From NCBI GenBank assembly GCA_900696625.1, contig CAADGU010000382.1, forward strand, positions 1 through 43,424: 43,424 nucleotides of DNA, read 5' to 3'. The stretch is from an uncultured Chloroflexota bacterium. GTDB taxonomy: Bacteria > Chloroflexota > Anaerolineae > Promineifilales > Promineifilaceae. Below the pieces are notes generated by a model that searched no databases, was not told the DNA's origin, and saw nothing but the letters and a program-made list of their open reading frames with translations. The position numbers and the translations under genes are program-made. Below are positions 16,972 through 30,299 of this stretch, in pieces (positions within the stretch are counted from its first letter, which is position 1; every line of letters begins with the position of its first letter).

Positions 16972-17048
16972 ACAGGCATAACAAAGTGTGTCAATGGAAA
17001 ATGGGACAAATGGGTATGCGGAGTTTTCTAGATACCAGAGAGGAGTTC

Positions 17049-17096
17049 GCACGCCCACGTGCGAACGGGCACGTGCGAACGGGCACGTGGGCGTGC
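17049..17096. repeat. GC-rich hairpin with an internal 14-bp tandem duplication
   Basis: A perfect 14-bp stem (17049-17062 with 17083-17096). Two exact tandem copies of GTGCGAACGGGCAC (17059-17072, 17073-17086) run across the loop. It is part of a 321-bp gene-free stretch (16918-17238) that also holds the operator and two further hairpins. Confidence 0.75.
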
Positions 17097-17111
17097 CCTA
17101 CTCCTCAACAA

Positions 17112-17150
17112 GAAATCCGCACACCCTGGGCTAATCGGCGTGCGGATTTC
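17112..17150. repeat. 11-bp stem hairpin
   Basis: GAAATCCGCAC (17112-17122) pairs perfectly with GTGCGGATTTC (17140-17150) across a 17-nt loop. Possible 3' end signal of the small-protein or glucokinase transcript. Confidence 0.6.
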
Positions 17151-17162
17151 TGTGCAACGGGC

Positions 17163-17225
17163 AGTGCCAGGCAGGGGCAAGACCATTTTGGCTGACCACC
17201 GTCGTACTGCCCCTTGCCTGGCACT
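17163..17225. repeat. Long-armed inverted repeat
   Basis: AGTGCCAGGCAGGGGCA (17163-17179) mirrors 17208-17225 with one bulged base, around a 28-nt loop. It ends 14 bases before the stop of the small protein and may be its transcript terminus. Confidence 0.6.
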
Positions 17226-17238
17226 ACTTGTCAGTGAC

Positions 17239-17385
17239 TTAATCCTGCAAAGCCAGGCGTAGGGCGCGGCTCATTTCATCCGGGCCGATCAGTTCCGCCA
17301 GCGCCCGCAGCAAATTCGGGTGTTCCGCCCACAACCATTCCAACCGCAGCCAGAAACCCGGCAGCACTTCCGATATTGTACTCAT
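17239..17385 (-). CDS. Small protein of 48 residues, unknown function
   Basis: A short frame with a good ribosome binding site (GAGGTG, about eight bases before ATG 17385) encodes 48 residues. It is rich in Leu, Trp and Glu: it begins MSTISEVLPGFWLRLEWLW and continues with HPNLLRALAEL and MSRALRLALQD. Codon choice (CTG, GCG, CGG) matches neighbouring genes. It is predicted to be helical and amphipathic, with no signal peptide. It follows the polyphosphate glucokinase gene by 52 bp on the same strand, so the two may be cotranscribed. I do not recognise a family. Confidence 0.55.
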   Translation of the reverse strand: MSTISEVLPGFWLRLEWLWAEHPNLLRALAELIGPDEMSRALRLALQD

Positions 17386-17437
17386 CAGGTATCACCTCAC
17401 ACTCCCGATTATATCACCCTTTCACCCCAACACCTGC

Positions 17438-18178
17438 TCACTCCGCCACGGCCGTCACCGCCGCCCCTACGATCCCCGCCTCATTGCGCAGTTCAGCCGG
17501 TACCAGCCTGGCCCGCGTCTGGATGTAAGGGAAGAACTTATCATGTTTTTTGCTCACCCCACCGCCGATAATGATCAATTCCGGCGAAAAGAGAAACTCG
17601 ATGTGCTGAAAGTAGACGTTGAGCCGTTCGCCCCATGCCTGCCATTTCAATTTTTTCTCTGTGCGGATGCGGTCCGAAGTGTACCCCTCGGCGTCCACCT
17701 TCATGCTGCGCAGGTAGAGATGCCCCAATTCCATGTTGGGCACCAGACGGCCGTCCAGAAACAGCGCCGACCCGATGCCTGTGCCCAGTGTAAACATCAT
17801 CACCACCCCTTTCTGGTTGTGCCCGGCGCCAAAATGGTGTTCGGCCAACGCCGCCACGTCGGCATCGTTGTAGACAACGGCCGTGCAACCTGTCTCCCGC
17901 GTAATCGCTTCCTGCGCATTGAACCCAATCCACCCTTTGTCAATGTTGGCCGCGCTGTACAACACGCCATGAATGGCAATACCCGGAATGCCCACCCCCA
18001 TCGGCCCCTGGTAATGGAGCGTCTCCGTTATCTGGCGAATAACCTGTATACACGCCGCCGGTGTAGACGGATTGGGCGTATCTATACGGATACGCTCGCT
18101 GACCAGTTCCCCCGTCTCCGTATTCACCAACGCGCCCTTAATCCCCGACCCGCCAATGTCAATGCCCAGTGCAATCAT
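17438..18178 (-). CDS. ppgK: Polyphosphate glucokinase (ROK family)
   Basis: The enzyme phosphorylates glucose to glucose-6-phosphate using polyphosphate and often ATP. The phosphate loop [14 protein letters not shown] is at 5-18, the catalytic Asp in [13 protein letters not shown] (NDAD, 104-107), [11 protein letters not shown] at 130-140 and [11 protein letters not shown] at 146-156. It lacks the CxCGxxGC zinc motif of bacterial ATP glucokinases of the ROK type, which fits the PPGK subgroup, as does the 246-residue length. AAGGAGG sits just upstream of ATG 18178. Given the amino-sugar operon beside it, activity on glucosamine or GlcNAc is a possible but unproven side role. Confidence 0.9.
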
Positions 18179-18194
18179 GGTGCCCTCCTTATCT

Positions 18195-18268
18195 GGTAAT
18201 CGGTAATCGGTGAACGGTATTCGATAATCGGAAGATCTACTGATTACCGATTACCGTTTACCGATAAC
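18195..18268. repeat. Inverted GGTAATC repeat
   Basis: GGTAATCGGTAATCGGT (18195-18211) and imperfect further units are followed by inverted GATTACC units to 18268. Read on the minus strand, the right arm supplies the C-terminal Val-Ile-Gly-Lys-Arg and TAA stop of the patatin-like protein. Confidence 0.8.
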
Positions 18269-19081
18269 CTCTTGTAACACATGCTCCACCTGCCACACGG
18301 CCGTCCGACCCGCCGATACCCCCTCCTGCCAACGATGAAAATCAAACAGCCCGATGGCGCCAATTTCGGGGCGTAAGAGCAGGTCGGGTGGGTTTTCGGC
18401 CAGGTTTTTTTCCATATTTTGGGTAGTGATCACATCCAGCGTGGCCGCCAGCACCCACCATAGTTCATTGCGCTGGATCATTTCCGCCGCTTTTGTCAGT
18501 GGCCCGGTACGGCCGTACCGCCGTTGTATGGGCGCATAGGGGTCCGTATTGGTCAGGTCTATCGCCAGCACGTACTCTGCCCCCAACTGCCGGGCCACAT
18601 CAAACGGCGTGTTGTTCTTTACACCGCCATCCACCAGGATCATGTCGCCCATCTCCACCGGCGGCAGGGCGACGGGGATGGCAATGGTGGCCAGCACGGC
18701 CGTGACCACATCCCCCTCCTGCAACACCACTTCCTGGCGGGATACCAGGTCGGTGGCAACGACCGCCAGCGGCAGTTTGAGGTCGGCAAAATTCGGCCGG
18801 CCGATGGCCTTTTCCAGCCGTTTTTCCACGCGCCGGTTGCTGACCAGCGCCGGCACACGCAGATCGGCCGGCCGATACAATTGTTCCAGGTTGAACTGTT
18901 GGAAAAAGTCCAGCATCTCTTCGGGCGATAGTCCGGCAGCCAACAGCGCCCCTAACAGGCCGCCAATGCTGGTACCCACCACCAGGTCAGGCCGCAGCCC
19001 CAGGCGCTCTAATTCCAGCAGCACGCCAATGTGCGCCGCGCCTCTGGCCCCACCCCCGCCAAGAACTAAACCGAGTTTCAT
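18251..19081 (-). CDS. Patatin-like phospholipase (RssA type)
   Basis: A serine lipid acyl hydrolase of about 276 residues. The oxyanion loop GGGGARG is at 8-14, the nucleophile motif GTSIG at 36-40 with Ser38, and the catalytic Asp151 lies in VDGGVKNNTP. No signal peptide or membrane segment is seen, so it is cytoplasmic or peripheral. An in-frame ATG 48 bases upstream (19129) would add 16 residues, but these are a translation of the intergenic GGTAATC repeat (TDYRLPIT), so I place the start at 19081. It lies between the phosphorylase and glucokinase genes on the same strand, each gap filled by a repeat. Confidence 0.9.
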   Translation of the reverse strand: MKLGLVLGGGGARGAAHIGVLLELERLGLRPDLVVGTSIGGLLGALLAAGLSPEEMLDFFQQFNLEQLYRPADLRVPALVSNRRVEKRLEKAIGRPNFADLKLPLAVVATDLVSRQEVVLQEGDVVTAVLATIAIPVALPPVEMGDMILVDGGVKNNTPFDVARQLGAEYVLAIDLTNTDPYAPIQRRYGRTGPLTKAAEMIQRNELWWVLAATLDVITTQNMEKNLAENPPDLLLRPEIGAIGLFDFHRWQEGVSAGRTAVWQVEHVLQEVIGKR

Positions 19082-19084
19082 AGA

Positions 19085-19160
19085 GGTAATCGGTAATCGG
19101 TAATCGGTTATCGGTTGCGGCTTGATCACCCATTACCGCTAACGGATGACCGATTACCGG
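19085..19160. repeat. Inverted GGTAATC repeat
   Basis: Three GGTAATC units and a GGTTATC unit (about 19085-19115) face inverted, partly degenerate ATTACCG units up to 19160. It fills the gap between the pyrimidine phosphorylase and patatin genes. Confidence 0.8.
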
Positions 19161-20465
19161 CTAAGTGATAGTCCCGTAAAAATGGGGCAACGGCCGTACC
19201 GCTGCCTCCGTCCACTCAATAGCCGCCAGGAGTTCCTGCTGCGCCTGGGCCAGTTTGGCGGGGTCATTGGCGTGGATTTCGCCTAACCGGTCGCCGGCGG
19301 CGAACTCGTCGCCCACTTTGGCGCGCAAGACGAAGCCGACAGCGTGGTCAATGTCGTCCGTTTTCACCAGCCGACCGCCGCCCAAATGCACGGCGGCCCA
19401 GCCGATGGCGGCCGTATCCATGGCCGCGATTGTGCCCGATTGTGGCGCGAGAATTGGTTCAATCAACTGCGCTGTGGGCAATAAATCGGGATTGTCTACC
19501 TGACGGCCGTCACCCCCCTGTGCGGTCACCAGTTCGCGGAATTTTGCCAGGGCACGGCCGTCTTCTCTAACGGCCGTTATTAATTTCTTTGTCTCATCCA
19601 GTTCCTTTGCCTTGCCTGCCAGCAGCAGCATGTGGGCCGCCACCTCCAGGCAATGCGCCCAAAAGTCGGCCGGGCCGTCCCCTTGCAACGTGGCAATCGC
19701 CTCTTTCACTTCCAGGGCGTTGCCAATGGCATGGCCGAGCGGCTGGTTCATGTCAGAAATGAGGGCGATGGTTTTGCGCCCGGCGTCCGCGCCAATGTCT
19801 ACCATGATTCGCGCCAGTTGGCGGGCGCTTTCCACCGTGGGCATAAACGCGCCGTTGCCCGTTTTTACATCCAGCACAATGGCGTCTGCGCCCGCCGCCA
19901 GTTTCTTAGACATGATGGAGGCGGCGATGAGCGGCGTGCTGGCAACCGTGCCGGTGACATCACGCAGGGCATAGAGTTTACCGTCGGCAGGGGCGAGTAC
20001 GGCCGTTTGCCCGGCCAACACCAGCCCAATTTCCGCCAACTGCCGTTTGAACTTAGCCAGCGGCATGGCTGCCGACCAGTCGGTGAAGGACTCCATCTTG
20101 TCCAGTGTGCCACCGCTGGAACCCAGGCCGCGCCCGCTCATCTTGCCGACGGGCACGCCGCAGGCCGCCACCAATGGCTGCACGGCCAGCGTGGTTTTGT
20201 CGCCCACGCCGCCGGAGGAATGTTTGTCTACTACAAAGGGGGCCACGTCGTGCAGGTCTAGCTGGTCACCGGAGCGGGCCATCGCCAGGGTCAGGTCAAC
20301 GGTTTCGCGGCGGCTCATACCGCGCAGGAAAATAGCCATCAGCAGCGCCGCCGTCTGGTAATCGGGGATGCGCTCGGCCGTCAGTTCGTGGATGAACCAG
20401 GTGATCTCGTCGGTGGTCAGGTCACGGCCGTCGCGTTTTTTCTCGATAATGTCTACCATGCGCAT
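19161..20465 (-). CDS. pdp: Pyrimidine-nucleoside phosphorylase
   Basis: The enzyme splits uridine and thymidine/deoxyuridine with phosphate to give the base and (deoxy)ribose-1-phosphate in nucleoside salvage. The nucleoside phosphorylase family 3 signature [17 protein letters not shown] is at 110-126, and the phosphate-binding [13 protein letters not shown] at 81-93. The helical N-terminal domain and C-terminal domain are complete at 434 residues, the usual length. Choosing between DeoA and Pdp is not certain by eye; length and K-H-S-S-G context fit Pdp. The start may be M1 or M3. Seven ACGGCCGT octamers lie in or near this gene (for example 19503, 19554, 19570, 19999, 20424). Confidence 0.92.
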
Positions 20466-20488
20466 GGGGAAAATCCGTCCTTTTCCCG

Positions 20489-20512
20489 ATTATAACAGGA
20501 TTCCGCTATAAT
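20489..20512. promoter_or_regulatory. Two opposed TATAAT boxes in a divergent gap
   Basis: A plus-strand TATAAT at 20507-20512 and a minus-strand TATAAT at 20494-20489 lie in the 68-bp gap between divergent genes. Neither has a strong -35. The plus box would give a very short leader before the AAGGAG at 20521. Confidence 0.4.
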
Positions 20513-20533
20513 CCAGGCGAAAGGAGATCTCCC

Positions 20534-21082
20534 ATGTCCGCGCAAATTGAAATTAAATTGAGTAGCCTGGAAGAGATGTTTGCCGAACCCGCCGCCGATC
20601 CCTTCGACCCGGACAGTCGTTATATTTCCGGTATGGATGAGGTTGTCGGCCAATTGCGCCTGAAACGGCGCGAGTTGGATGAGAAGACGCGATTGCTCAT
20701 TCGGCTGCCGCAAACGGCCGTGACCGCCGACACCGCCGCCATCCTCAAAGCCGCCCTTGACCGCTATGGCGCTGCCCAGATCGCCCAAAACCAGCAAGCT
20801 ATTGAAGAATTGCGTGTAGGCAGCCGCCGGGAAACGCTCAGCGCCATTGTCATTGCGACTATGTTGATCATCCTCACCATTTTCCTGGTAAACCTGATCC
20901 CAGAGTTGGAACAGGTCAGCGGGGCGCTGGCCGGTTTTGTGGGTATTGCCGTATGGGTCATCTTTTGGGACCCCATCTACAATTACGTCTACGCCTGGCG
21001 GCCCAACCGGCTGGACATTAAGGTGTTTGAGAATTTGCAGAAGGCGGAATTGGTGATCGAGGGAAAAGAAAGTGAACAGTGA
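20534..21082 (+). CDS. Hypothetical membrane protein with two TM helices, 182 aa
   Basis: I do not recognise a family. Residues 1-95 are soluble and mostly helical. Two membrane helices follow: TLSAIVIATMLIILTIFLVNLI (about 100-121) and a second segment ending in GIAVWVIFWDPIYNYVYAW (about 128-155). A conserved-looking WDPIYNYVYAWRP boundary and a charged tail come last. Similar hairpin-anchored proteins are often of unknown function. AAGGAG lies seven bases before ATG 20534. It is divergent from the phosphorylase gene. Its TGA is part of a GTGAGTGG repeat. Confidence 0.75.
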   Translation: MSAQIEIKLSSLEEMFAEPAADPFDPDSRYISGMDEVVGQLRLKRRELDEKTRLLIRLPQTAVTADTAAILKAALDRYGAAQIAQNQQAIEELRVGSRRETLSAIVIATMLIILTIFLVNLIPELEQVSGALAGFVGIAVWVIFWDPIYNYVYAWRPNRLDIKVFENLQKAELVIEGKESEQ

Positions 21083-21172
21083 GTGGTTAGCAGTGAGTGG
21101 TTAGCAGTGAGCGGTTAGCAGTGAGCGGTAAATGATTGACTGCTTACTGCTCACCGCTTGCTGCTCACTACT
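21079..21172. repeat. 14-bp tandem repeat with inverted half
   Basis: Three GTGAGTGGTTAGCA-type units and one partial unit (21079-21134) are followed by an inverted stretch rich in TGCTCAC (about 21139-21172). The first unit holds the stop codon of the upstream gene. The repeat ends next to the ribosome binding site of the amidohydrolase gene. Confidence 0.85.
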
Positions 21173-21183
21173 GGAGATGAGCT

Positions 21184-23169
21184 ATGACTGAACAAGTTGA
21201 CGTATTACTGATGGGCGGCACGGCCGTGACCATGAACCCCGCCTATGACATTATCCCCAACGCCGGTATTGCCATTCGCGGCGATTCCATTGTGGCGGTT
21301 GGCCCGGCGGATCAAATACAGGCGGCCTACAGCGCTGCGGAAACGGTAGACTGCACCGGGCAGGCCATTATCCCCGGCCTGGTGAATGCGCACACCCACA
21401 TCCCCATGACCCTGCTGCGTGGCCTGAATGACGACCTGCGCCTGGATGTGTGGCTGGGCTATCTGATGCCCCTGGAACGGGAATTTGTGACGCCCGACTT
21501 TGTGAAATTGGGCGCGCAAATCGCCTGCGCCGAGATGATTCGCTCTGGCGTGACCAGCTTTGCCGATATGTACTATTTTGAGGATGCCATTGCCGAGGAG
21601 ACGGCCGTCATCGGCATGAGAGCGTTATTGGGCCAGACCGTGCTCGTCTTTCCCGCGCCGGACGCCGCCACCTACGAAGATGCGCTGGTACTGTGCCGCC
21701 GCTTTATCGAACGGTGGAACGGGCACCCGCTCATCCAACCGGCCGTTGCCCCCCATGCTTGGTACACCGGCACACCGGAGATGGACCGCGCCTGCGCCGA
21801 CCTGGCCCGCGCCTATAATGTGCCCATTCACACCCATGTTGCCGAGACCGCCCTGGAAGCGGAAAACAGCCGTGAACAAAATCAGATGTCGGTGGTAGAA
21901 TGGATTGCCAGCCAGGGCTTGTTAGAGACCAAGCTGTTAGCCGCGCACTGCGTCCATTTGGATCAGACCGAGATGGTGGCTTTGAAAAAGGCTAACGCCG
22001 GCGTAGCCCACTGCCCCACCAGCAATCTGAAGCTGGCTTCCGGCATTGCCCAGGTGGGCGAGATGTTGGAAATGGGGCTGAATGTGGGTGTGGGCACGGA
22101 CGGACCCGCCAGCAACAATGACCTGGATATGTTTGAGGAGATGCGGCTGGCGGCGCTGCTGGCAAAAACGAAAAGTAATGACCCCACGGTGTTACCGGCG
22201 TGGCAGGCATTGATGCTGGCGACCATTGGCGGGGCGCGGGCGCTGCATATGGGGCACATCACCGGCAGCCTGGAAGTGGGCAAACGCGCCGACCTGGCCA
22301 TTGTGAACATGGATGGGGTGCATAACCGGCCCCATTTTGCCAATAACCCGGACGCCATTTATTCGCGGCTGATTTATGCGGCCAAGGCGGGGGATGTGCA
22401 GCACGTGTTGTGCAACGGCCGTTGGCTGCTGCGCGATCAACAATTGTTAACCGTAGACGAAGCGGCGGCGCTGGCAGCGGCGGCGGTTGTTGCCAAAAAG
22501 ATTGACGCTTTTGTCCTGGAACGGGAAGCCAGCCCGTACAACAAGCTGGTGCTGCTCTCCGGCGTAAAGCGGCAGGAAAGTTTTGAGGTGCAGGTGAAGG
22601 TGCCGGATGTGGATAAGACGGCCGTGCTCACTTTCCTGCACAGCGACCAATGCAAAATCAGCCGCCACGCTCATTACAAGCAGTATGACCATTACTTCAT
22701 CTTTGGCGGCGATGACCCAGACGCGGCCCGCCTGCGCCACCGCGAAGATGAATTTATAGATGAGGACGGGCAGGTCTACCAGACGCGCTCCCGGCTCACT
22801 CTCACCAGCCAGGCCGAGCGGCAAGAATTCCCCAACGCCGTCATGCTTTCTCGCTCCCGCTACCTGGCCGAAGCCGACCGCAGTTTGCGTTTTTACCGCG
22901 AATACTTTGCCCCCGCCCAGGAATTAGAGGTATGCAAAGACAGGCTGCGCTGGCACATCCTTTACCAGGATACAGATTTTGCTATCAACCTGGATAAACT
23001 GGTCAAACCGGATCGACCTGGTTACTTTTTGGAAATCAAGTCCCGTACCTGGTCACGCACGGACGCCGAACGCAAGGCGGGCCTGATTGCCATGATGTTG
23101 GCGCAAATGGGGGTGGCGCTGGACACGGCCGAACGGCAGGAGTATGCCGAAATTGCCATGAATGCATAA
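21184..23169 (+). CDS. Amidohydrolase (MTA/SAH deaminase-like) fused to a C-terminal CYTH-like domain
   Basis: A single uninterrupted 661-residue frame. Residues 1-445 form a complete metal-dependent amidohydrolase: NAHTHIPM with His70/His72, PIHTHVAET with His216/His218 and Glu221, AAHCVHLD with His255/His258, and GTDGPASNND with catalytic Asp306. This pattern fits the 5'-methylthioadenosine/S-adenosylhomocysteine deaminase group. Residues about 465-655 look like a CYTH (triphosphate-tunnel) domain: an ExExK-like strand (E468-V-Q-V-K472), an RLRHRED strand at 516-522, RSRLTL at 535-540, and LEIKSRTW at 616-623. The middle Glu of ExExK is Gln. I know of no standard enzyme with this architecture. 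GGAGATG precedes ATG 21184. A bidirectional terminator follows. Confidence 0.85.
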   Translation: MTEQVDVLLMGGTAVTMNPAYDIIPNAGIAIRGDSIVAVGPADQIQAAYSAAETVDCTGQAIIPGLVNAHTHIPMTLLRGLNDDLRLDVWLGYLMPLEREFVTPDFVKLGAQIACAEMIRSGVTSFADMYYFEDAIAEETAVIGMRALLGQTVLVFPAPDAATYEDALVLCRRFIERWNGHPLIQPAVAPHAWYTGTPEMDRACADLARAYNVPIHTHVAETALEAENSREQNQMSVVEWIASQGLLETKLLAAHCVHLDQTEMVALKKANAGVAHCPTSNLKLASGIAQVGEMLEMGLNVGVGTDGPASNNDLDMFEEMRLAALLAKTKSNDPTVLPAWQALMLATIGGARALHMGHITGSLEVGKRADLAIVNMDGVHNRPHFANNPDAIYSRLIYAAKAGDVQHVLCNGRWLLRDQQLLTVDEAAALAAAAVVAKKIDAFVLEREASPYNKLVLLSGVKRQESFEVQVKVPDVDKTAVLTFLHSDQCKISRHAHYKQYDHYFIFGGDDPDAARLRHREDEFIDEDGQVYQTRSRLTLTSQAERQEFPNAVMLSRSRYLAEADRSLRFYREYFAPAQELEVCKDRLRWHILYQDTDFAINLDKLVKPDRPGYFLEIKSRTWSRTDAERKAGLIAMMLAQMGVALDTAERQEYAEIAMNA

Positions 23170-23174
23170 AAAAA

Positions 23175-23197
23175 GCCCGCTCTTGGCGGGCTTTTTT
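23175..23197. terminator. Bidirectional rho-independent terminator
   Basis: GCCCGC (23175-23180) pairs with GCGGGC (23186-23191) over a 5-nt loop, with A-runs before and six Ts after. It separates the converging amidohydrolase-CYTH and SCP2 genes. Confidence 0.88.
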
Positions 23198-23198
23198 G

Positions 23199-23516
23199 TT
23201 ATCCCATAATGGATTGCAGCTTCATCACCGTGTTCAGGTCGCCTTCGACCTTGATTTTGCCGGACATGAAGGCCATCATCGGGTTCAGGCTGCCGCTGGT
23301 CATGGCGACGTAATCGGCGTCGGTCATTTTGATAGTGGCGGACGCGCCGGGATCGGCGCCGTCGGTGACATTGGCGGCGCCATCGGCGACTTTCAGCGTC
23401 CATTGGCCGCCGTTATCACCAGAGAGGTCAAAAACGACGGTGGCGTTCAAGCCCGCCAGTTTGGCCGGGTCTACAGTTGTCGGGAGTTTGTTAAGAATTT
23501 CAGCAGGTGTTGTCAT
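23199..23516 (-). CDS. SCP2 sterol-carrier domain protein
   Basis: A small lipid-binding-fold protein of 105 residues consisting of one SCP2 domain: helical start, then VVFDLSGDNGGQWTLKVADGAANV, the ATIKMTDADYVAMTSGSLNPMMAFMSGKIKVEG signature (split here: ATIKMTDADY at about 71-80 and FMSGKIKVEGDL at about 91-102), and a short final helix. SCP2 folds bind fatty acyl chains or sterols; in bacteria the ligand is usually unknown. ATG 23516 was chosen because AGGAG lies about eight bases upstream; longer in-frame extensions are intergenic. It is divergent from the next gene. Confidence 0.88.
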   Translation of the reverse strand: MTTPAEILNKLPTTVDPAKLAGLNATVVFDLSGDNGGQWTLKVADGAANVTDGADPGASATIKMTDADYVAMTSGSLNPMMAFMSGKIKVEGDLNTVMKLQSIMG

Positions 23517-23649
23517 TTGCGGTCTCCTAATTTTGTTCTTGTGCCAGAAGGGCAGGGATTGGATTAACGAAGGGAGTATAACAACGGCCGTGCCTCTGTC
23601 AAGAATTTTAATGCCGCACCGCGCTATAAATTCCAATTAAACATAATAC

Positions 23650-23677
23650 TTGACGCAACTTTATGTTATGGTAAGAT
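23650..23677 (+). promoter_or_regulatory. Candidate promoter of the two-TM protein gene
   Basis: TTGACG (23650-23655) is followed after 16 bp by TAAGAT (23672-23677), about 77 bp before ATG 23754, in an AT-rich divergent gap. By eye only. Confidence 0.4.
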
Positions 23678-23753
23678 ATTCACAGCAGAGGGGATGTACA
23701 TAATGTTATATATGTTGCATCCCACAAGGGGGCAATAATAAGGTAGGTGCCGC

Positions 23754-24812
23754 ATGGATTTTATAAGAAAGTATCTTTTCGTGATTGTGGCGTTTGTGGT
23801 GGGGTGGGCCGTTGGGCTGTTCATTTTTGGCTGGTGGCTGACGCCGGTTGAATATGTGTGGACGGCCAATGCCACACCCAATGATTTAGCCCCGCAGTAC
23901 CAGGCTCAATACATTAATACAACCGCCATTGCCTTTGCGCAGACCAATAACCCACAGGTTGTTACCAATGCCTTCAATGGTTGGAGCGATCCCTACGCAG
24001 CAATTTGTGGCGCTATCCCCACTGCGCCCGATCAGGCCACCATCAACACGTACAACCAGATGGCCATCATCGTTAGTGGGCAAGATTGCTCCGCAGCCGT
24101 GACCACCCCCGTTGATACCACGCAGCCAACCACCCCACCGGCCGAGGAAGGGGGTGGCAGTGGCCTGATCATCCTGCTGATCATCGTCCTTATTGTCTTG
24201 GCGGTGGGTATTATCCTGGTGCTGCGGATGCGGGGTTCAGTGTCGGATGATGAAGGCCCCAGCACGTATTATGACATGCCAGATGCCGGCCCAATTAGCC
24301 AGGAAGAAGTGAATGCCATTCCGTTGGCGCGCTTCCCCAGCAATTACACCTACGGCCGTGACAACTTTGACGATTCACACAGCATTGAAAACACCAATGG
24401 GGACTTCCTGGGTGAATGTGGCGTGGGCATTGCCGAGTCCATCGGCGCCGATTCACCTAAAAACGTGACCGCATTTGAAGTGTGGCTTTTTGACAAGAAT
24501 GACATTCGCACCGTCACCAAAGTGATTATGAGCGACCACGCCTTCTACGATGACGCCATCAAAGCCAAACTGGCCCCCAAAGGGGAACCGGTTTTGGCTG
24601 CCGAAAACGAGGTCATCGTATTGGAAACGGCCGCGCTCATCATCAACGCCGAAATTAAAGAACTGCGCTATGGCGAAGGGGGCAACCTGCCGCCGCAGAG
24701 TTACTTTGAGACCTTTACCATTGAACTTTCGGCCTGGGCTAAAAGCAGCGATGCCGGCGTCGCAGTGAGCGATACGGTTCAACCACAAGATGACGATCTG
24801 CTGGCATATTAA
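23754..24812 (+). CDS. Hypothetical membrane protein with an external and a cytoplasmic domain, 352 aa
   Basis: I do not recognise a family. TM1 is at about 8-28. An extracytoplasmic region (30-136) has two cysteines (C85, C112) that could form a disulfide, and ends in a Pro/Thr/Gly linker. TM2 is at 137-157. The rest (160-352) should be cytoplasmic: an acidic linker, then a mixed alpha/beta domain with ENTNGDFLGECGVGIAESIG and FEVWLFDKNDIRTVTKVIMS. The N-in, two-TM layout resembles a sensor or scaffold that links an outside helical domain to a cytoplasmic domain, but this is inference. AAGGTAGG lies before ATG 23754. A strong terminator follows, shared with the convergent dGTPase gene. Confidence 0.75.
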   Translation: MDFIRKYLFVIVAFVVGWAVGLFIFGWWLTPVEYVWTANATPNDLAPQYQAQYINTTAIAFAQTNNPQVVTNAFNGWSDPYAAICGAIPTAPDQATINTYNQMAIIVSGQDCSAAVTTPVDTTQPTTPPAEEGGGSGLIILLIIVLIVLAVGIILVLRMRGSVSDDEGPSTYYDMPDAGPISQEEVNAIPLARFPSNYTYGRDNFDDSHSIENTNGDFLGECGVGIAESIGADSPKNVTAFEVWLFDKNDIRTVTKVIMSDHAFYDDAIKAKLAPKGEPVLAAENEVIVLETAALIINAEIKELRYGEGGNLPPQSYFETFTIELSAWAKSSDAGVAVSDTVQPQDDDLLAY

Positions 24813-24840
24813 TGAGCTGGCAGCGTCCTGGTAAGGAGGG

Positions 24841-24873
24841 AAAGGCCGCAGTTAATGACTGCGGCCTTTTTTT
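24841..24873. terminator. Rho-independent terminator between convergent genes
   Basis: GGCCGCAGT (24844-24852) pairs with ACTGCGGCC (24858-24866) over a 5-nt loop. AAA before and seven Ts after extend it. It serves the plus-strand gene and possibly the minus-strand dGTPase gene, which ends two bases later. Confidence 0.9.
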
Positions 24874-24874
24874 G

Positions 24875-26029
24875 TCAGGCACGGCCGTAAGGGTCAAACA
24901 ATTTCTGCCACTCGTCCAGCGCGTAACGGTCGGTCATACCGGCAATATAGTCGGCCACAATGCGGTGCAAGTCTGCCTGTTCCAACTTTTTCTGCGTATC
25001 GGTAGGCAGCATTTTTGGCTCCTTGATATACGCTTCAAAGAGTTGGGTGATAAAACGTTCCGCTTTGCTTTGCATCCGCACCAACCGGTAATGACGATAC
25101 ATATTGTCCAGCAAGAATTGTTTGAGACGCTGTACTTTCAGCCCAAAATCTGGCGCATACGTGACCAGATTGGCCGGATGCAACTGCACTTTGTCGGGGG
25201 AATCAATCTGGTGGTGGCGCAGGTTCACGGCCGTTTGCTCCAGCACATTCGTCACCGACATACCAATCAATTCCCGGATAATCTCGTGTCGCACCAGCGT
25301 GGTAAACGGTTCCCATGTTTGCCAACCCACCACCGCCTTTAGCTCATGCCACAATTCCAACTCGTCCAGGGCCGCCAGATCAAACATACCCGCCCGCAGC
25401 CCATCATCCAGATCGTGGGCATTGTAGGCGATCTCATCGGCCAGATTGGCAATTTGCGCTTCCAGCGAACCACGCCGGTCGGGTTCATAACCGGTGGCGT
25501 CGCTTTTGTCATAATCGGTCTCATGTTTGATCATGCCTTCGCGGGTTTCATAGGTCAGGTTCAGGCCATCAAAGTTGGGATAACGCCGCTCCAGGCTGGT
25601 AACAATGCGGTAACTTTGCGTATTGTGGTTAAAGCCGCCGTGCCCTTGCATCAGCGCATTTAAGGCGTGTTCACCGGCATGGCCGAAGGGGGGATGGCCC
25701 AGGTCGTGCGCCAGACAAATGGCCTCGGTTAAATCCTGGTTGACGCCCAATCCCCGCGCCAGCGAACGGCCTAGCTGCGACACTTCCAGGGTGTGGGTGA
25801 GGCGGGTGCGGTAATGGTCGCCTTCATAGTAGACGAAGACCTGGGTTTTGTATTCCAACCGGCGGAAGGCGGTGGTGTGGATGATGCGGTCACGGTCACG
25901 GCCGTAGGCCGTGCGTGTGTCCGATTCCGCCTCCGGGTAGACGCGCCCTTTGGAGCGGGCGCTCTTTTGGGCAAAGGGGGCTAAGGTGACAGTTTCCAAT
26001 TCTTCTAGCTGCGGACGTTTGTACATCAT
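24875..26029 (-). CDS. dgt: dGTP triphosphohydrolase-like HD-domain protein
   Basis: The predicted enzyme hydrolyses dGTP or other dNTPs to nucleoside and triphosphate, controlling nucleotide pools. The 384-residue HD fold is complete: FRRLEYKTQVFV at 56-67, metal ligand His79 in RLTHTLEVSQLGR, AHDLGHPPFGHAGE with His108-Asp109, and the last ligand Asp198 in LADEIAYNAHDLDD. It lacks the long insertions of E. coli Dgt (505 residues) and fits the shorter 'deoxyguanosinetriphosphate triphosphohydrolase-like' group. ATG 26029 was chosen because GGAGG lies six bases upstream; a longer start at 26074 would run into an intergenic hairpin. Its substrate range is unknown. Confidence 0.92.
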   Translation of the reverse strand: MMYKRPQLEELETVTLAPFAQKSARSKGRVYPEAESDTRTAYGRDRDRIIHTTAFRRLEYKTQVFVYYEGDHYRTRLTHTLEVSQLGRSLARGLGVNQDLTEAICLAHDLGHPPFGHAGEHALNALMQGHGGFNHNTQSYRIVTSLERRYPNFDGLNLTYETREGMIKHETDYDKSDATGYEPDRRGSLEAQIANLADEIAYNAHDLDDGLRAGMFDLAALDELELWHELKAVVGWQTWEPFTTLVRHEIIRELIGMSVTNVLEQTAVNLRHHQIDSPDKVQLHPANLVTYAPDFGLKVQRLKQFLLDNMYRHYRLVRMQSKAERFITQLFEAYIKEPKMLPTDTQKKLEQADLHRIVADYIAGMTDRYALDEWQKLFDPYGRA

Positions 26030-26043
26030 CTTGATCCTCCACC

Positions 26044-26076
26044 GTAGACCTGACAGGCTGCTGAGACCTGTCAAGT
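26044..26076. repeat. Hairpin of the GACCTGACAGG type (copy 1)
   Basis: TAGACCTGACAGG faces CCTGTCAAGTCTA with one mismatch. A better copy of the same element lies at 26849-26882, on the other side of the LysM gene. Confidence 0.65.
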
Positions 26077-26177
26077 CTAATAATTAATGCTTGCGATTAG
26101 TTTATGACAAGTGTACCATAAGGTGAAAGTGACATAACCAACAGTTTCCCCTGTTGGCATGTCAGGGCAGGAAAGAC

Positions 26178-26843
26178 GTGAGGCAAAGGCCAGATTTTGC
26201 CATTGTGGTATTGATGATCGTCGTCGCCATTATCCTGGCGATGGGTGTATTTTTGATTGGCCTTGTTATCTGGGACCGGCCTGACACGCCGGCAGGCGTA
26301 GCCCAAACAGAAAGCCAGCCGGCCAACATCGTGATGGTGGGGAATGAACCAGTCACGCTGCAAGTAGACCCCAACCAGCGCCCCTTCACGGTGCAGCCCA
26401 CGGCCGTGCCCCAGGTAATAGAACAACCAACAGCCGCGCCAGAAACGGCCGTTGCCGCCCCCGAAGCAGCGGCCGCGCCAGCCGTGGACGCCAGCACATT
26501 AGGTGGCGGTGGGCAGCCGGCTACCAATCGCCTCATCTTCATCAACTACCAGGTACAGCAGGGTGACACCTTGTTTCGCCTGCAATCCAACTTTGTGACG
26601 ACCATTGCGCTGATGGCTCGATTTGGCATTTCTGCCAGCGACCTGGTAGTAGGCAATGTGCTGAGTCTGCCGGTAGGTGACCCGAATGCCTGCACGCCCT
26701 GGCGGCCCTATGTGGTGCAGCGGGGGGACACGGCGTTTGGCCTCAGCCGGTTTTATGGCATCTCCTTGCAAGAGTTACAAGCGCGCAACGGGCTAGACGC
26801 CAACTACTCCCTGTATGAAACAGAGGTGATTTGTGTGCCTTAG
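26178..26843 (+). CDS. Membrane-anchored protein with two LysM domains
   Basis: A single N-terminal membrane helix (about 7-31, starting after RQRPDF) anchors an outward Pro/Ala-rich linker (about 70-115). Two LysM repeats follow: YQVQQGDTLFRLQSNFVT (from about 124) and YVVQRGDTAFGLSRFYGI (from about 178 to the end). LysM domains bind N-acetylglucosamine in peptidoglycan or chitin. GTG 26178 is my start, because AGGAAAG lies just before it; a TTG at 26154 would add eight residues without a ribosome binding site. Two ACGGCCGT octamers (26400, 26445) encode Thr-Ala-Val in the linker. It is flanked by two copies of the GACCTGACAGG hairpin. Confidence 0.85.
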   Translation: MRQRPDFAIVVLMIVVAIILAMGVFLIGLVIWDRPDTPAGVAQTESQPANIVMVGNEPVTLQVDPNQRPFTVQPTAVPQVIEQPTAAPETAVAAPEAAAAPAVDASTLGGGGQPATNRLIFINYQVQQGDTLFRLQSNFVTTIALMARFGISASDLVVGNVLSLPVGDPNACTPWRPYVVQRGDTAFGLSRFYGISLQELQARNGLDANYSLYETEVICVP

Positions 26844-26848
26844 GCCAT

Positions 26849-26882
26849 AGACCTGACAGGTTTCAAAAAACCTGTCAGGTCT
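26849..26882. terminator. Perfect 15-bp hairpin between convergent genes
   Basis: AGACCTGACAGGTTT (26849-26863) pairs exactly with 26868-26882 over a CAAA loop. It lies between the converging LysM and mrpG genes, a natural place for a bidirectional terminator, though the T-run is inside the stem. It is the second copy of the element at 26044. Confidence 0.7.
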
Positions 26883-26888
26883 GTCTCG

Positions 26889-27236
26889 TTAGTCGGGCTC
26901 AAGACCCTCCCCCATCCCCTCTGGCAAATCATTCCGCATGGCTTCTTTCATGGGAATGCCTAACCTATACGCCGCCGAAGCGATGGCATGAGCCGCCACC
27001 GGCCCCGATACCATCAGCAACACCATCAGCAGCAGCGCCTTGCCCCAGCCCAGGGGCGTCCACATGACGGCGGCAACCAACAGCAGCACCACGCCAAACA
27101 ACCCCACTTTGCCGGTGGCGTGCAGCCGGGTATACACATCGGGAAAACGAAGGTAACCCAACACACCGACTACTGAAAAAAAAGTGCCCACAAGAACGGC
27201 AATGAGCGCCACTGCCTGCGAAATTGTTTCCATCAT
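26889..27236 (-). CDS. mrpG: Mrp-type Na+/H+ antiporter subunit G
   Basis: A small membrane subunit of the multi-subunit cation/proton antiporter. Three helices are visible in 115 residues, with the family core VGTFFSVVGVLGYLRFPDVY and RLHATGKVGLFGVVLLL (about 16-52), then a third helix KALLLMVLLMVSGPVAAHAI. AGGAG lies five bases before ATG 27236. In the usual operon subunit G is the last gene; here it is transcribed away from the A-F genes, back to back with mrpA across a 180-bp control region. A linked -10 box lies upstream. Confidence 0.92.
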   Translation of the reverse strand: MMETISQAVALIAVLVGTFFSVVGVLGYLRFPDVYTRLHATGKVGLFGVVLLLVAAVMWTPLGWGKALLLMVLLMVSGPVAAHAIASAAYRLGIPMKEAMRNDLPEGMGEGLEPD

Positions 27237-27263
27237 TTCACTCCTGATTCTAGACCTTTTGCC

Positions 27264-27293
27264 ATTATAACCTTTGACAACTGGTTACAACAA
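27264..27293 (-). promoter_or_regulatory. Candidate promoter of mrpG
   Basis: On the minus strand TTGTTG (27293-27288), 18 bp, TATAAT (27269-27264), 28 bp before the mrpG start. A plus-strand TATAAT at 27364-27369 could serve mrpA but lacks a -35. Confidence 0.4.
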
Positions 27294-27416
27294 ACCAAAA
27301 TGATCACCGCCTGATTTGTAGGGATTGCCAGGGGGAACAGGTGGCGACCCGGTCATATGTGGCTATAATCGTTTGAGAAGGCGGACAGGCACACGGCCGT
27401 CTCTGTAGTATAGCGC

Positions 27417-30299
27417 ATGACTCAGACCACCTTACTTTTAGCCCCACTCATCACATTGTTACTTGGCACGGCCGTTGGCTTTGCGTTTTCCCACCCCACT
27501 CTCAATGCCCGCCTGCCCATCACCCGCCAGGCCTGGCTGCTGGCTCTTTTCCCCCTTATTGCCTTTATCATTTTGCTGCTACCTGTGCCCGCCCTGAATG
27601 AGGGGCAGATATTTCTGTGGCGCATCGAATGGCTGCCCTCCTTTGGGCTGCAACTAGGCCTATACTACGACAGTTGGAGCGCCCTCTTTGCCCTCATTAT
27701 CACCTTCATCGGCGTCCTGATTGTCATTTATGCCGGGCAATACTTCAACGGCCAGCAAGACGCCTGGCGATTCCAGGTTTACACCCTGCTTTTTATGACC
27801 TCCATGCTGGGCCTGGTGATGGCCGGTGATGTGCTGACCCTGTTCATCTTTTGGGAAGGCACCAGCATCACCTCTTATCTGCTGATCGCCTACAAATACA
27901 AAGACCCGGAAGCCCGCGCTGGCGCCTTCCGCTCCCTGTTCATCACCGGCGGCGGCGGCATCGCTTTGTTGGCCGGCCTGTTGTTTGTGAGCTATGTCAG
28001 CGGCAGCACGCAGTGGACAGAGATCCTCAGCAGCGGCGACCAACTGCGTTCCAGCGAGTTTTATAATGTGATGCTGGCATTGGTGGCATTTGGTGCGTTT
28101 GCCAAAAGCGCCCAATTCCCGGCGCATATCTGGCTGCCGGGCGCGATGAGCGCCCCCACGCCCGCCAGCGCCTACCTGCACTCGGCCACAATGGTTAAAG
28201 CCGGCATCTACCTGATGGCCCGGCTCAACCCGGCGCTCGGTTTTACCAGCCAATGGTTTTTCCTGCTAACGGTGGTGGGCATGGCCACCATGTTGTGTGG
28301 CGCTTATTTGGGTCTGAAGCAAAAAGACCTCAAGGGACTGCTGGCCTACTCCACCATTGCCCAGTTGGGCATTTTGATGATGCTCATTGGGCAGGAGGAT
28401 GAAGAAAGTTACAAGGCGCTGGTGATTGGCATTGTGGCTCACGCGCTTTACAAGAGCGCCTTGTTTATGGTTGCCGGTATTATAGACCACGAAACAGGCA
28501 CCAGGGACATCACCCGCCTGGGTGGGCTGCGCCGGGCAATGCCCGTCTCTTTCGCCATTGCCCTTTTAGCTGGTCTTTCCATGGCCGGGCTGCCTCCCAT
28601 GTTTGGCTTTTTGGCAAAGGAAACGCTGCTGGCGGCTACGTTACATCCAAACTTGCAGCCGGTGCTGGCGGCCGTATCTGTGTTCACCGGCGCCCTCATG
28701 TTGGCCCAGGCCGGGTTGTTTGTGATAGACACGTTCCTGGGCCAACCGCGTGATCCTACTGTTCATGCACACGAAGCGCCGCAAACGATGCTGCTGTCCC
28801 CGGCCATTCCGGCGGCATTGTCGTTGATCATTGTGCTTTTACCTGGGCCGAAGGAAGAATCGGCATTTCTGGCTGCCGCCGCCGCCGCTGCTTTTGGCAG
28901 CAAGGTCAAAGTTTCGCTGGCGCTCTTTCATGGGCTGAATGCGCCGCTGCTGCTTTCGATCATTGCTATCACGTTGGGGTCGGTTATCTGGTATTTCCGC
29001 TGGCCGCTGCGCGCCTGGCAAGACCGCCTGGGGGCAACACTCACTTTCAACCGGCTGTATACCGGTGTGTTGGCCGCCATGGACAAAGGGGGTTTTGTCG
29101 CCACTCGCTTGCAGCAGGGCAAATTACGCACCTATCTGGTGATTATGATCCTGGCAGCCGTGTCCCTGGTCTTCTTTTTCATGGGCTGGCCCACGTATTC
29201 GTTGGCCGGTCTCACCTGGCCCGGCCTCGATTTTCCTGGGGAGATGGCTTTATTGCGTTTCTTTTCCCTGCTGGTTGTCACCGGTTCGGCCCTGGCGACC
29301 CTGGTTTTGAACCGCGACTTCTACGCCATCCTGGCTATGAGCGCCATGGGGTTGGGCACGGCCGTCTGGTTTGTGCTGGAACCGGCGCCCGATGTGGCCC
29401 TGGTGCAAATTGTGGTAGATATTCTGTCGCTGGTCATTCTGGTGCTGACGCTGGCAAAATTACCCCGGGCGCAGCGCCTGAAAGCACAACGGATGCGGTG
29501 GGCGGAACGGCCGTCGCGCCCGCTGCTGCTGCGGGATGCCATTGCCTCTATCGCCATTGGTTGTGTGGTTGCCTTGATCACCCTAACTGCTTTAACCTCC
29601 CGCCCCCGCCTAAGCCAGGTGACGCCTTACTACATCGCCAACGCCAAAGAGGAAACCGGCGCGGCCGATATTGTCGGCGCCATCATTGTAGATTTCCGGG
29701 CAATGGACACCCTGATAGAAATCACCGTCTTCAGCCTGGCCGGGCTGGGCGTTTTTACCCTGTTGAACTATGCCGCCCGCACGCACGGCGACCACGCCCA
29801 GGGCGAGAAAAAAGTCCGGCGTACTTTCTCGACTCTGGGCATTGGCGGCCGGCGGGCTTCTCCATTTCTGCGCGCACCGGCCTATGCCCTCCTGCCGGTG
29901 GCGCTGGTGTTAGGCATTGTGCAGATGATGTTCGGCCACGACCAGCCCGGCGATGGGTTTACCGCCGGCGTGGTGATTGGGCTGGCGGTGGCGCTGTGGT
30001 ATGTGGTGTTTGGCTACACCGAGACGCGCGCCCGCCTGCCCTGGCTGCGTGCCTCGGCGCTCATTGCCGTTGGTGTGCTGCTGGCAATTGTAAACGGGAT
30101 CATTGTGACCCTTTTTACCGACCATTTTTTGGGAAATGTGGATTACGGCGAACTGGTAGGGCTGCCGCTTCCCGGTGGTTTCCACATCAGTTCATCCTTC
30201 CTGTTTGAAATAGCCATCTGCCTGGCCGTCTTGGGCAGCGCCACGCACATGCTCAATGCGCTGGGGCACCCTGGAGAAGAGGAGGAGGGTACTGCGTGA
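27417..30299 (+). CDS. mrpA: Fused Mrp antiporter subunits A and B
   Basis: The 960-residue membrane protein is the large proton/sodium-translocating subunit. Residues about 1-500 are NuoL/ND5-like: FWEGTSITSYLLIAYKYKDPEARAGAF, AHIWLPGAMSAPTPASAYLHSATMVKAG and GLLAYSTIAQLGIL. A MrpA-specific C-terminal part follows, with DVALVQIVVDILSLVILVLTLAKLPR at about 658-683 and MDTLIEITVFSLAGLGVFTLL at about 762. From about 815 the sequence is a MrpB domain: FLRAPAYALLPVALVLG, then FGHDQPGDGFTAGVVIG, ending with FHISSSFLFEIAICLAVLG. An A-B fusion is known in 'group 2' (Pha-type) operons. Complex I was rejected because B, C, E, F and G subunits are present. Its TGA is inside a GTGATGC repeat. Confidence 0.93.
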   Translation: MTQTTLLLAPLITLLLGTAVGFAFSHPTLNARLPITRQAWLLALFPLIAFIILLLPVPALNEGQIFLWRIEWLPSFGLQLGLYYDSWSALFALIITFIGVLIVIYAGQYFNGQQDAWRFQVYTLLFMTSMLGLVMAGDVLTLFIFWEGTSITSYLLIAYKYKDPEARAGAFRSLFITGGGGIALLAGLLFVSYVSGSTQWTEILSSGDQLRSSEFYNVMLALVAFGAFAKSAQFPAHIWLPGAMSAPTPASAYLHSATMVKAGIYLMARLNPALGFTSQWFFLLTVVGMATMLCGAYLGLKQKDLKGLLAYSTIAQLGILMMLIGQEDEESYKALVIGIVAHALYKSALFMVAGIIDHETGTRDITRLGGLRRAMPVSFAIALLAGLSMAGLPPMFGFLAKETLLAATLHPNLQPVLAAVSVFTGALMLAQAGLFVIDTFLGQPRDPTVHAHEAPQTMLLSPAIPAALSLIIVLLPGPKEESAFLAAAAAAAFGSKVKVSLALFHGLNAPLLLSIIAITLGSVIWYFRWPLRAWQDRLGATLTFNRLYTGVLAAMDKGGFVATRLQQGKLRTYLVIMILAAVSLVFFFMGWPTYSLAGLTWPGLDFPGEMALLRFFSLLVVTGSALATLVLNRDFYAILAMSAMGLGTAVWFVLEPAPDVALVQIVVDILSLVILVLTLAKLPRAQRLKAQRMRWAERPSRPLLLRDAIASIAIGCVVALITLTALTSRPRLSQVTPYYIANAKEETGAADIVGAIIVDFRAMDTLIEITVFSLAGLGVFTLLNYAARTHGDHAQGEKKVRRTFSTLGIGGRRASPFLRAPAYALLPVALVLGIVQMMFGHDQPGDGFTAGVVIGLAVALWYVVFGYTETRARLPWLRASALIAVGVLLAIVNGIIVTLFTDHFLGNVDYGELVGLPLPGGFHISSSFLFEIAICLAVLGSATHMLNALGHPGEEEEGTA

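Follow-up and report, generated by a model that had tools for sequence, protein, structure and literature searches.

A single gene of the window (the whole 43,424-nucleotide stretch of Chloroflexota DNA analyzed here), at positions 21184-23169 on the + strand, encodes one protein in which a nucleoside deaminase is fused to a CYTH/triphosphate-tunnel (TTM) domain; that the fusion is real is as good as certain. The folds are known but the architecture is new, and the CYTH half belongs to a subgroup with a distinctive and invariant loss of catalytic residues. It is proposed, at about even odds, that the protein is a nucleoside deaminase carrying its own sensor, in which a non-hydrolyzing tunnel would bind a phosphate-rich ligand and regulate the deaminase.

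The Fusion Gene and Its Deaminase Half

The gene starts with ATG and runs through an open frame of 661 aa (21184..23169, +), and the full-length orthologs likewise consist of a single frame. Thus, the initial annotation, which had seen a single frame joining a deaminase to a CYTH-like domain, described the gene correctly. In the full-length AlphaFold model (pLDDT 92.3), helices at residues 426-448 and 451-459 make up a helical connector (residues 426-460; 22459..22563, +). Conservation counts given below refer to 119 full-length orthologs from two classes.

Residues 1-440 (21184..22503, +) constitute an adenosine/MTA-type amidohydrolase deaminase domain, as judged both by Pfam (Amidohydro_1, residues 62-414, E 4e-75) and by structure. 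The model of residues 1-443 superimposes on 4dzh with a Z of 59.1, an rmsd of 1.2 and 39% identity, and on the adenosine/MTA deaminases of Xanthomonas, Chromobacterium, and Pseudomonas at 1.2-1.7 Å, with Z values of 57-59 and 38-39% identity; the ligands in these matched structures are inosine, methylthio-coformycin, and compounds of the MTA type. The MTA/adenosine deaminases of P. aeruginosa (4gbd/4dyk), C. violaceum (4f0r), X. campestris (4dzh), and T. maritima (TM0936) have the same fold as this half and share its metal and catalytic residues, with 34-39% identity across the whole domain. However, the PDB chains of such enzymes stop at about 410-470 residues without a tunnel domain, whereas the fusion continues to residue 661.

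The initial annotation had also described a complete metal-dependent deaminase with its ligands intact, and the orthologs bear this out. The HxH metal motif is present as H70-T-H72 (21391..21399, +), with H70 in 118/119 (the remaining one being an X) and H72 in 119/119. Invariant in all 119 are H218-x-x-E221 (21835..21846, +), which supplies a metal ligand and the catalytic Glu, the active-site H255 (21946..21948, +), and the metal/catalytic D306 (22099..22101, +); H191, W90, E98, and S310 are conserved to the same extent. The domain consequently carries the HxH, HxxE, His, and Asp residues of an MTA/adenosine-type deaminase within Amidohydro_1, and there is high confidence in the prediction that the N-terminal half deaminates adenosine-type nucleosides. 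The MTA, SAH, and 5'-deoxyadenosine deaminase models of NCBIfam are among the best matches. Nevertheless, all NCBIfam equivalog models, those for MTA/SAH deaminases included, score below their curated cut-offs with the window copy (bits/cut-off: PRK09045, 438/540; PRK07228, 350/522; PRK15493, 286/779), and the 5'-deoxyadenosine deaminase model, at 350 bits, lies under its whole-model cut-off. Consequently, annotation does not fix the substrate; adenosine, MTA, and 5'-deoxyadenosine are possible candidates.

The Tunnel Half: Fold and Catalytic Site

Residues 462-661 (22567..23166, +) were assigned to the CYTH/triphosphate-tunnel domain from AlphaFold models and structure matches, and there is very little doubt that this half is predicted correctly as a CYTH/TTM fold. 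The initial annotation had proposed a structure prediction compared with ThTPase and CyaB, and had regarded a C-terminal model other than a beta-tunnel as fatal to its reading. Modeled alone, the domain (pLDDT 85.5) has its strands and helices in CYTH order and displays the eight-stranded beta-tunnel plus C-terminal helix of the CYTH/TTM superfamily (PF01928). Its best match is 2een (Z 17.8 over 171 residues), followed by 1yem (17.4), SaTTM (16), CyaB (15.8, 3n0z), mouse thiamine triphosphatase (14.3), and YgiF (13.4). At the level of sequence, residues 443-661 of the window copy gave no match in Pfam, NCBIfam, or PDB searches. Pfam CYTH (PF01928) exceeds its curated cut-off in at least nine orthologous fusions, with the window copy falling below it, and at E 0.01 or better it hits 27 of the 59 members sampled; furthermore, an hhalign comparison with four canonical CYTH proteins from the same class yields a moderate probability of 60% and an E of 1e-5 with every motif in register.

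The CYTH motifs that the initial annotation had read (E468-V-Q470-V-K472, R516-L-R518-H-R520, and L616-E-I-K619-S) are found at just those positions. The first (22585..22599, +) is an ExQxK in place of the canonical ExExK, with Q470 in 119/119. The second (22729..22743, +) is the canonical RxR triphosphate clamp, with R518 and R520 in 119/119. The third, L616-E617-I-K619 (23029..23040, +), corresponds to the canonical beta-8 ExE with the second Glu changed to Lys, both E617 and K619 being present in 119/119. E468, K472, K585, R587, R589, N602, D604, and R621-T-W-S624 are also invariant in all 119; of the invariant residues, K472, K585, R587, and E617 count with R518 and R520 toward the triphosphate clamp. 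Missing here is the LTxK lysine, a substrate contact in many TTMs: position 541 is mostly T, I, V, or L.

TTM enzymes bind metal 1 through the ExE of beta-8, by its first Glu; metal 2, whose role is to activate the water for attack, is bound by both Glu residues of ExExK together with the second Glu of ExE (PMC4641920; PMC8233210). In several TTMs, catalysis suffers when an ExExK Glu is mutated (PMC4641920). In the fusion, two of the three catalytic metal-2 Glu residues are invariantly replaced, by Q470 and K619; of the features of the catalytic triphosphatase/ThTPase subgroup, the RxR clamp and the metal-1 Glu are present, and ExExK plus ExE are not. Given ExQxK and ExK in place of ExExK and ExE, the catalytic metal-2 site is incomplete. 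Normal triphosphatase activity would probably not be expected of such a tunnel, as far as its residues allow a prediction. One-metal or otherwise altered chemistry is possible, because E468 and E617 remain.

The Gln in ExExK had already led to the suggestion that the tunnel may bind rather than hydrolyze, and the presence of Q470 in 119/119, together with the second replacement at K619, supports this idea. The case is in fact stronger than was first held, because two of the three metal-2 Glu residues are invariantly replaced. The Glu-to-Lys change at residue 619, which affects the same catalytic metal site, had been overlooked. Finally, the window genome also contains a free-standing, canonical CYTH protein with EVEVK and FVELE; the fused copy is therefore a diverged paralogue rather than a duplicate of the canonical one.

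Relation to Known Tunnel Proteins

SaTTM, YgiF, archaeal PH1819, and thiamine triphosphatase have the fold, the RxR clamp, the ExExK Lys, the metal-1 Glu, and the C-terminal helix in common with the fusion. What separates the fusion from the CYTH/TTM enzymes is its ExQxK, its ExK, the missing LTxK lysine, and the catalytic metal-2 site that these changes leave incomplete. CyaB also shares the fold (Z 15.8 to 3n0z). The signature of the class IV cyclases consists of Ala at the second ExE Glu, a small residue for the first RxR Arg, and an intact ExExK (PMC8233210); in contrast, the fusion has a Lys rather than an Ala at the second ExE residue, retains both RxR arginines, and has an altered ExExK, with K619, R518, and Q470 all invariant.

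Tunnels joined to a second domain have precedents in the CYTH-CHAD protein YgiF and in plant TTM1/2, where the partner is a kinase domain. Among CYTH partners, CHAD and phosphoribulokinase have been listed, and fusions with HD, exopolyphosphatase, and kinase domains mentioned (PMC8233210). Plant TTM1/2 have also lost ExExK and ExE (PMC8233210). Unlike in YgiF and TTM1/2, the partner in the present fusion is a nucleoside deaminase, placed N-terminally, and the loss consists of a fixed Gln and a fixed Lys rather than of whole motifs. No description of a CYTH-amidohydrolase pairing was found in the literature searched, where "triphosphate tunnel" combined with "deaminase" led only to trypanosome polyphosphate and not to a fusion. 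Within that literature, the statement of the initial annotation that no characterized enzyme has this pairing is upheld. Domain databases may show the pairing for those orthologs that Pfam recognizes; "undescribed" thus applies to the literature searched and does not mean undetectable.

Genome Context

The divergent, head-to-head neighbor of the fusion gene encodes a pyrimidine-nucleoside phosphorylase (19161..20465, -; NCBIfam Y_phosphoryl over cut-off). BLAST finds this neighbor in 30 of 80 related loci, always upstream and on the opposite strand, and it persists down to 55-57% identity of the fusion. On the other side, a gene for an SCP2-fold protein (23199..23636, -; Pfam SCP2, E 1e-20) is the convergent neighbor in close relatives (16/80 loci). 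Other features of the region were noted as well. Two genes past the nucleoside phosphorylase lies a polyphosphate--glucose phosphotransferase (17438-18178, -; NF045942, 306 bits, cut-off 250), with a BLAST match in 19/80 loci at varying positions. Directly upstream of the fusion, 20534-21082 (+) encodes a small, predicted membrane-like protein without a family match, for which the three nearest relatives alone showed a homologue. The gap before the fusion start (21083-21175) is occupied by gttagcagtgagcggt and variants of it as short tandem repeats, after which comes a near-inverted copy. No Rfam element was found in 17000-27500.

An MTA phosphorylase (MTAP; TIGR01694 over cut-off) lies tail-to-tail with the fusion, no more than about 350 bp away, in 8 of 40 fused genomes belonging to six families (loci L192-L199: G001:C268, G040:C29, G049:C202, G016:C75, G054:C179, G018:C99, G030:C1, and G020:C210). 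The window genome has no phosphorylase over the TIGR01694 cut-off, and within 8 kb an MTAP neighbor is absent from the 80 fetched loci, which represent the closer relatives of the window. In the neighboring phosphorylases the TDYDxW motif of adenine-type MTAPs is retained, and their matches to MTAP structures are better than that to 3ozb, which is the weakest of their 13 PDB matches and which we take to be the P. aeruginosa enzyme. A route from MTA through methylthioinosine to a phosphorylase, as in P. aeruginosa, is consequently unsupported, the neighboring phosphorylases being MTAP-like. A second route, from SAH to S-inosylhomocysteine, was rejected in view of the SAH hydrolase of the window genome, which carries HVTTE; HxTxE, the SAH-preferring motif of this enzyme (PMC10978960), was present in 5/5 motifs read from eight SAH hydrolases fetched. 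Since the MTAPs look adenine-type and the SAH hydrolase has the SAH-preferring motif, there is no obvious need for prior deamination on the part of either downstream enzyme. A short SAH hydrolase (~425 aa), its PF05221 match split in two, is found in most genomes of the class, and a few other genomes have the long canonical form.

A replacement of classical adenosine deaminase by the fusion was likewise rejected, as PF00962 occurs regardless of whether the fusion is there (34/26 against 21/19, p 0.69). In the second class with the fusion, which we take to be probably Chloroflexia, no conserved operon or neighbor was found, apart from a CoaE (dephospho-CoA kinase) gene next after the fusion gene in two genomes. 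Overall, the context supports nucleoside/MTA and methionine salvage, not cyclic-nucleotide signaling.

Proposed Function and Alternatives

The retention of the clamp and the loss of the metal-2 site suggest that the tunnel has been kept for binding and freed from hydrolysis. In the model proposed here, the tunnel would bind, without hydrolyzing it, a ligand bearing a triphosphate or polyphosphate, such as ATP or another NTP, PPPi, or polyP, with K619 perhaps standing in for the second metal. Occupancy of the tunnel would then tune how the other half deaminates adenosine, MTA, or 5'-deoxyadenosine, and the salvage of purine nucleosides and SAM by-products would thereby be tied to energy or phosphate status. 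The parts of this model differ in strength. That the tunnel binds a phosphate-rich ligand is reasonably likely from its conserved residues; that such a ligand regulates the deaminase is a proposition with an equal chance of being right or wrong. The broader notion, that these proteins form a class of allosteric nucleoside deaminases in which adenosine/MTA deamination is switched by a catalytically dead triphosphate tunnel that reads polyphosphate, ATP, or another triphosphate, is tentative and falls slightly short of even odds.

Alternatively, the tunnel could be a scaffold for oligomer assembly or for the stability of the deaminase, with no physiological ligand. The replacement of the catalytic metal-2 residues, the well-defined arrangement of the halves in the full-length model (pTM 0.86), and the gene's standing alone, outside any conserved operon, in the second class would all agree with such a role. 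However, a scaffold needs no tunnel-lining K472, R518, R520, K585, R587, R589, or E617, all of which are kept in 119/119, and this lining stays fixed though pairwise identity in the C-terminal half drops to about 35%. A mere scaffold is consequently unlikely.

It is rather improbable, too, that the tunnel is an unusual one-metal triphosphatase, pyrophosphatase, or transferase, with K619 serving as the second metal and the deaminase acting on a related molecule. Such an activity would be in keeping with the invariance of E468, K472, E617, and D604, and loss of the motifs does not by itself abolish activity elsewhere: plant TTM1/2, without ExExK and ExE, are pyrophosphatases in vitro (PMC8233210), and Vtc4p, a polyP polymerase, has basic residues in part of what is an acidic patch in other TTMs, as does the fusion (PMC4641920). 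The fusion differs from Vtc4p, however, in retaining the first Glu, E468, in being bacterial, and in having no VTC context. Moreover, the replacement of two of the three metal-2 Glu residues, and the impairment of several TTMs when an ExExK Glu is mutated, argue against an active tunnel.

The initial annotation had favored a substrate or signal containing both adenine and a polyphosphate, such that both halves would act on one molecule, a triphosphorylated or cyclic purine. The combination of an adenine-nucleoside deaminase with a triphosphate tunnel is what invites this idea. Yet the nearest deaminases were solved with phosphate-free ligands (inosine, MTA-type compounds, and methylthio-coformycin), the class IV cyclase signature (PMC8233210) is lacking, and the genome context is one of nucleoside and MTA salvage. 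With no sign of cAMP or a triphosphorylated purine as substrate, a shared substrate is very unlikely, and this part of the annotation is not upheld.

Distribution and Inheritance

The fusion is old and spread over two Chloroflexota classes. Of 150 genomes sampled from the class, 89 have its C-terminal domain, nearly always within a frame of 620-840 codons, as do 89 of 400 genomes of a phylum sample, families outside the class included. In a separate genome collection, the fusion was present on 80/80 fetched contigs, 77 at full length and three with truncated frames. Because the fused frame recurs in this way across class, phylum, and fetched contigs, chance and the artefact that the initial annotation had guarded against, a frameshift or misassembly merging two separate genes, are excluded for all practical purposes.

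Deaminase relatives with at least 50% identity are all fused, save two apparently cut by contig ends, and unfused relatives have 44% identity or less. Conversely, no free-standing tunnel domain was found in the phylum sample, save two at contig ends without a complete deaminase. Divergence of the N-terminal half correlates with that of the C-terminal half (r 0.85 over 1500 pairs); judged by these comparisons, both halves are inherited together. A copy 65% identical to those of Anaerolineae occurs on a contig labeled Calditrichia (L104), which may be misbinned, with transfer as the alternative. No plasmid relative was found.

Implications

One practical consequence is that Chloroflexota genes annotated merely as amidohydrolase can carry a second, unannotated domain. 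To our knowledge, nearly all CYTH/tunnel domains described so far are enzymes. If the proposed function is true, a tunnel fold has here been converted from an enzyme into a sensor; with its metal site gone and its clamp kept across two classes, the domain would be a natural triphosphate/polyphosphate sensor on an easily assayed enzyme. Such a protein would connect the salvage of SAM by-products and purines with the phosphate or energy state of the cell in Chloroflexota.
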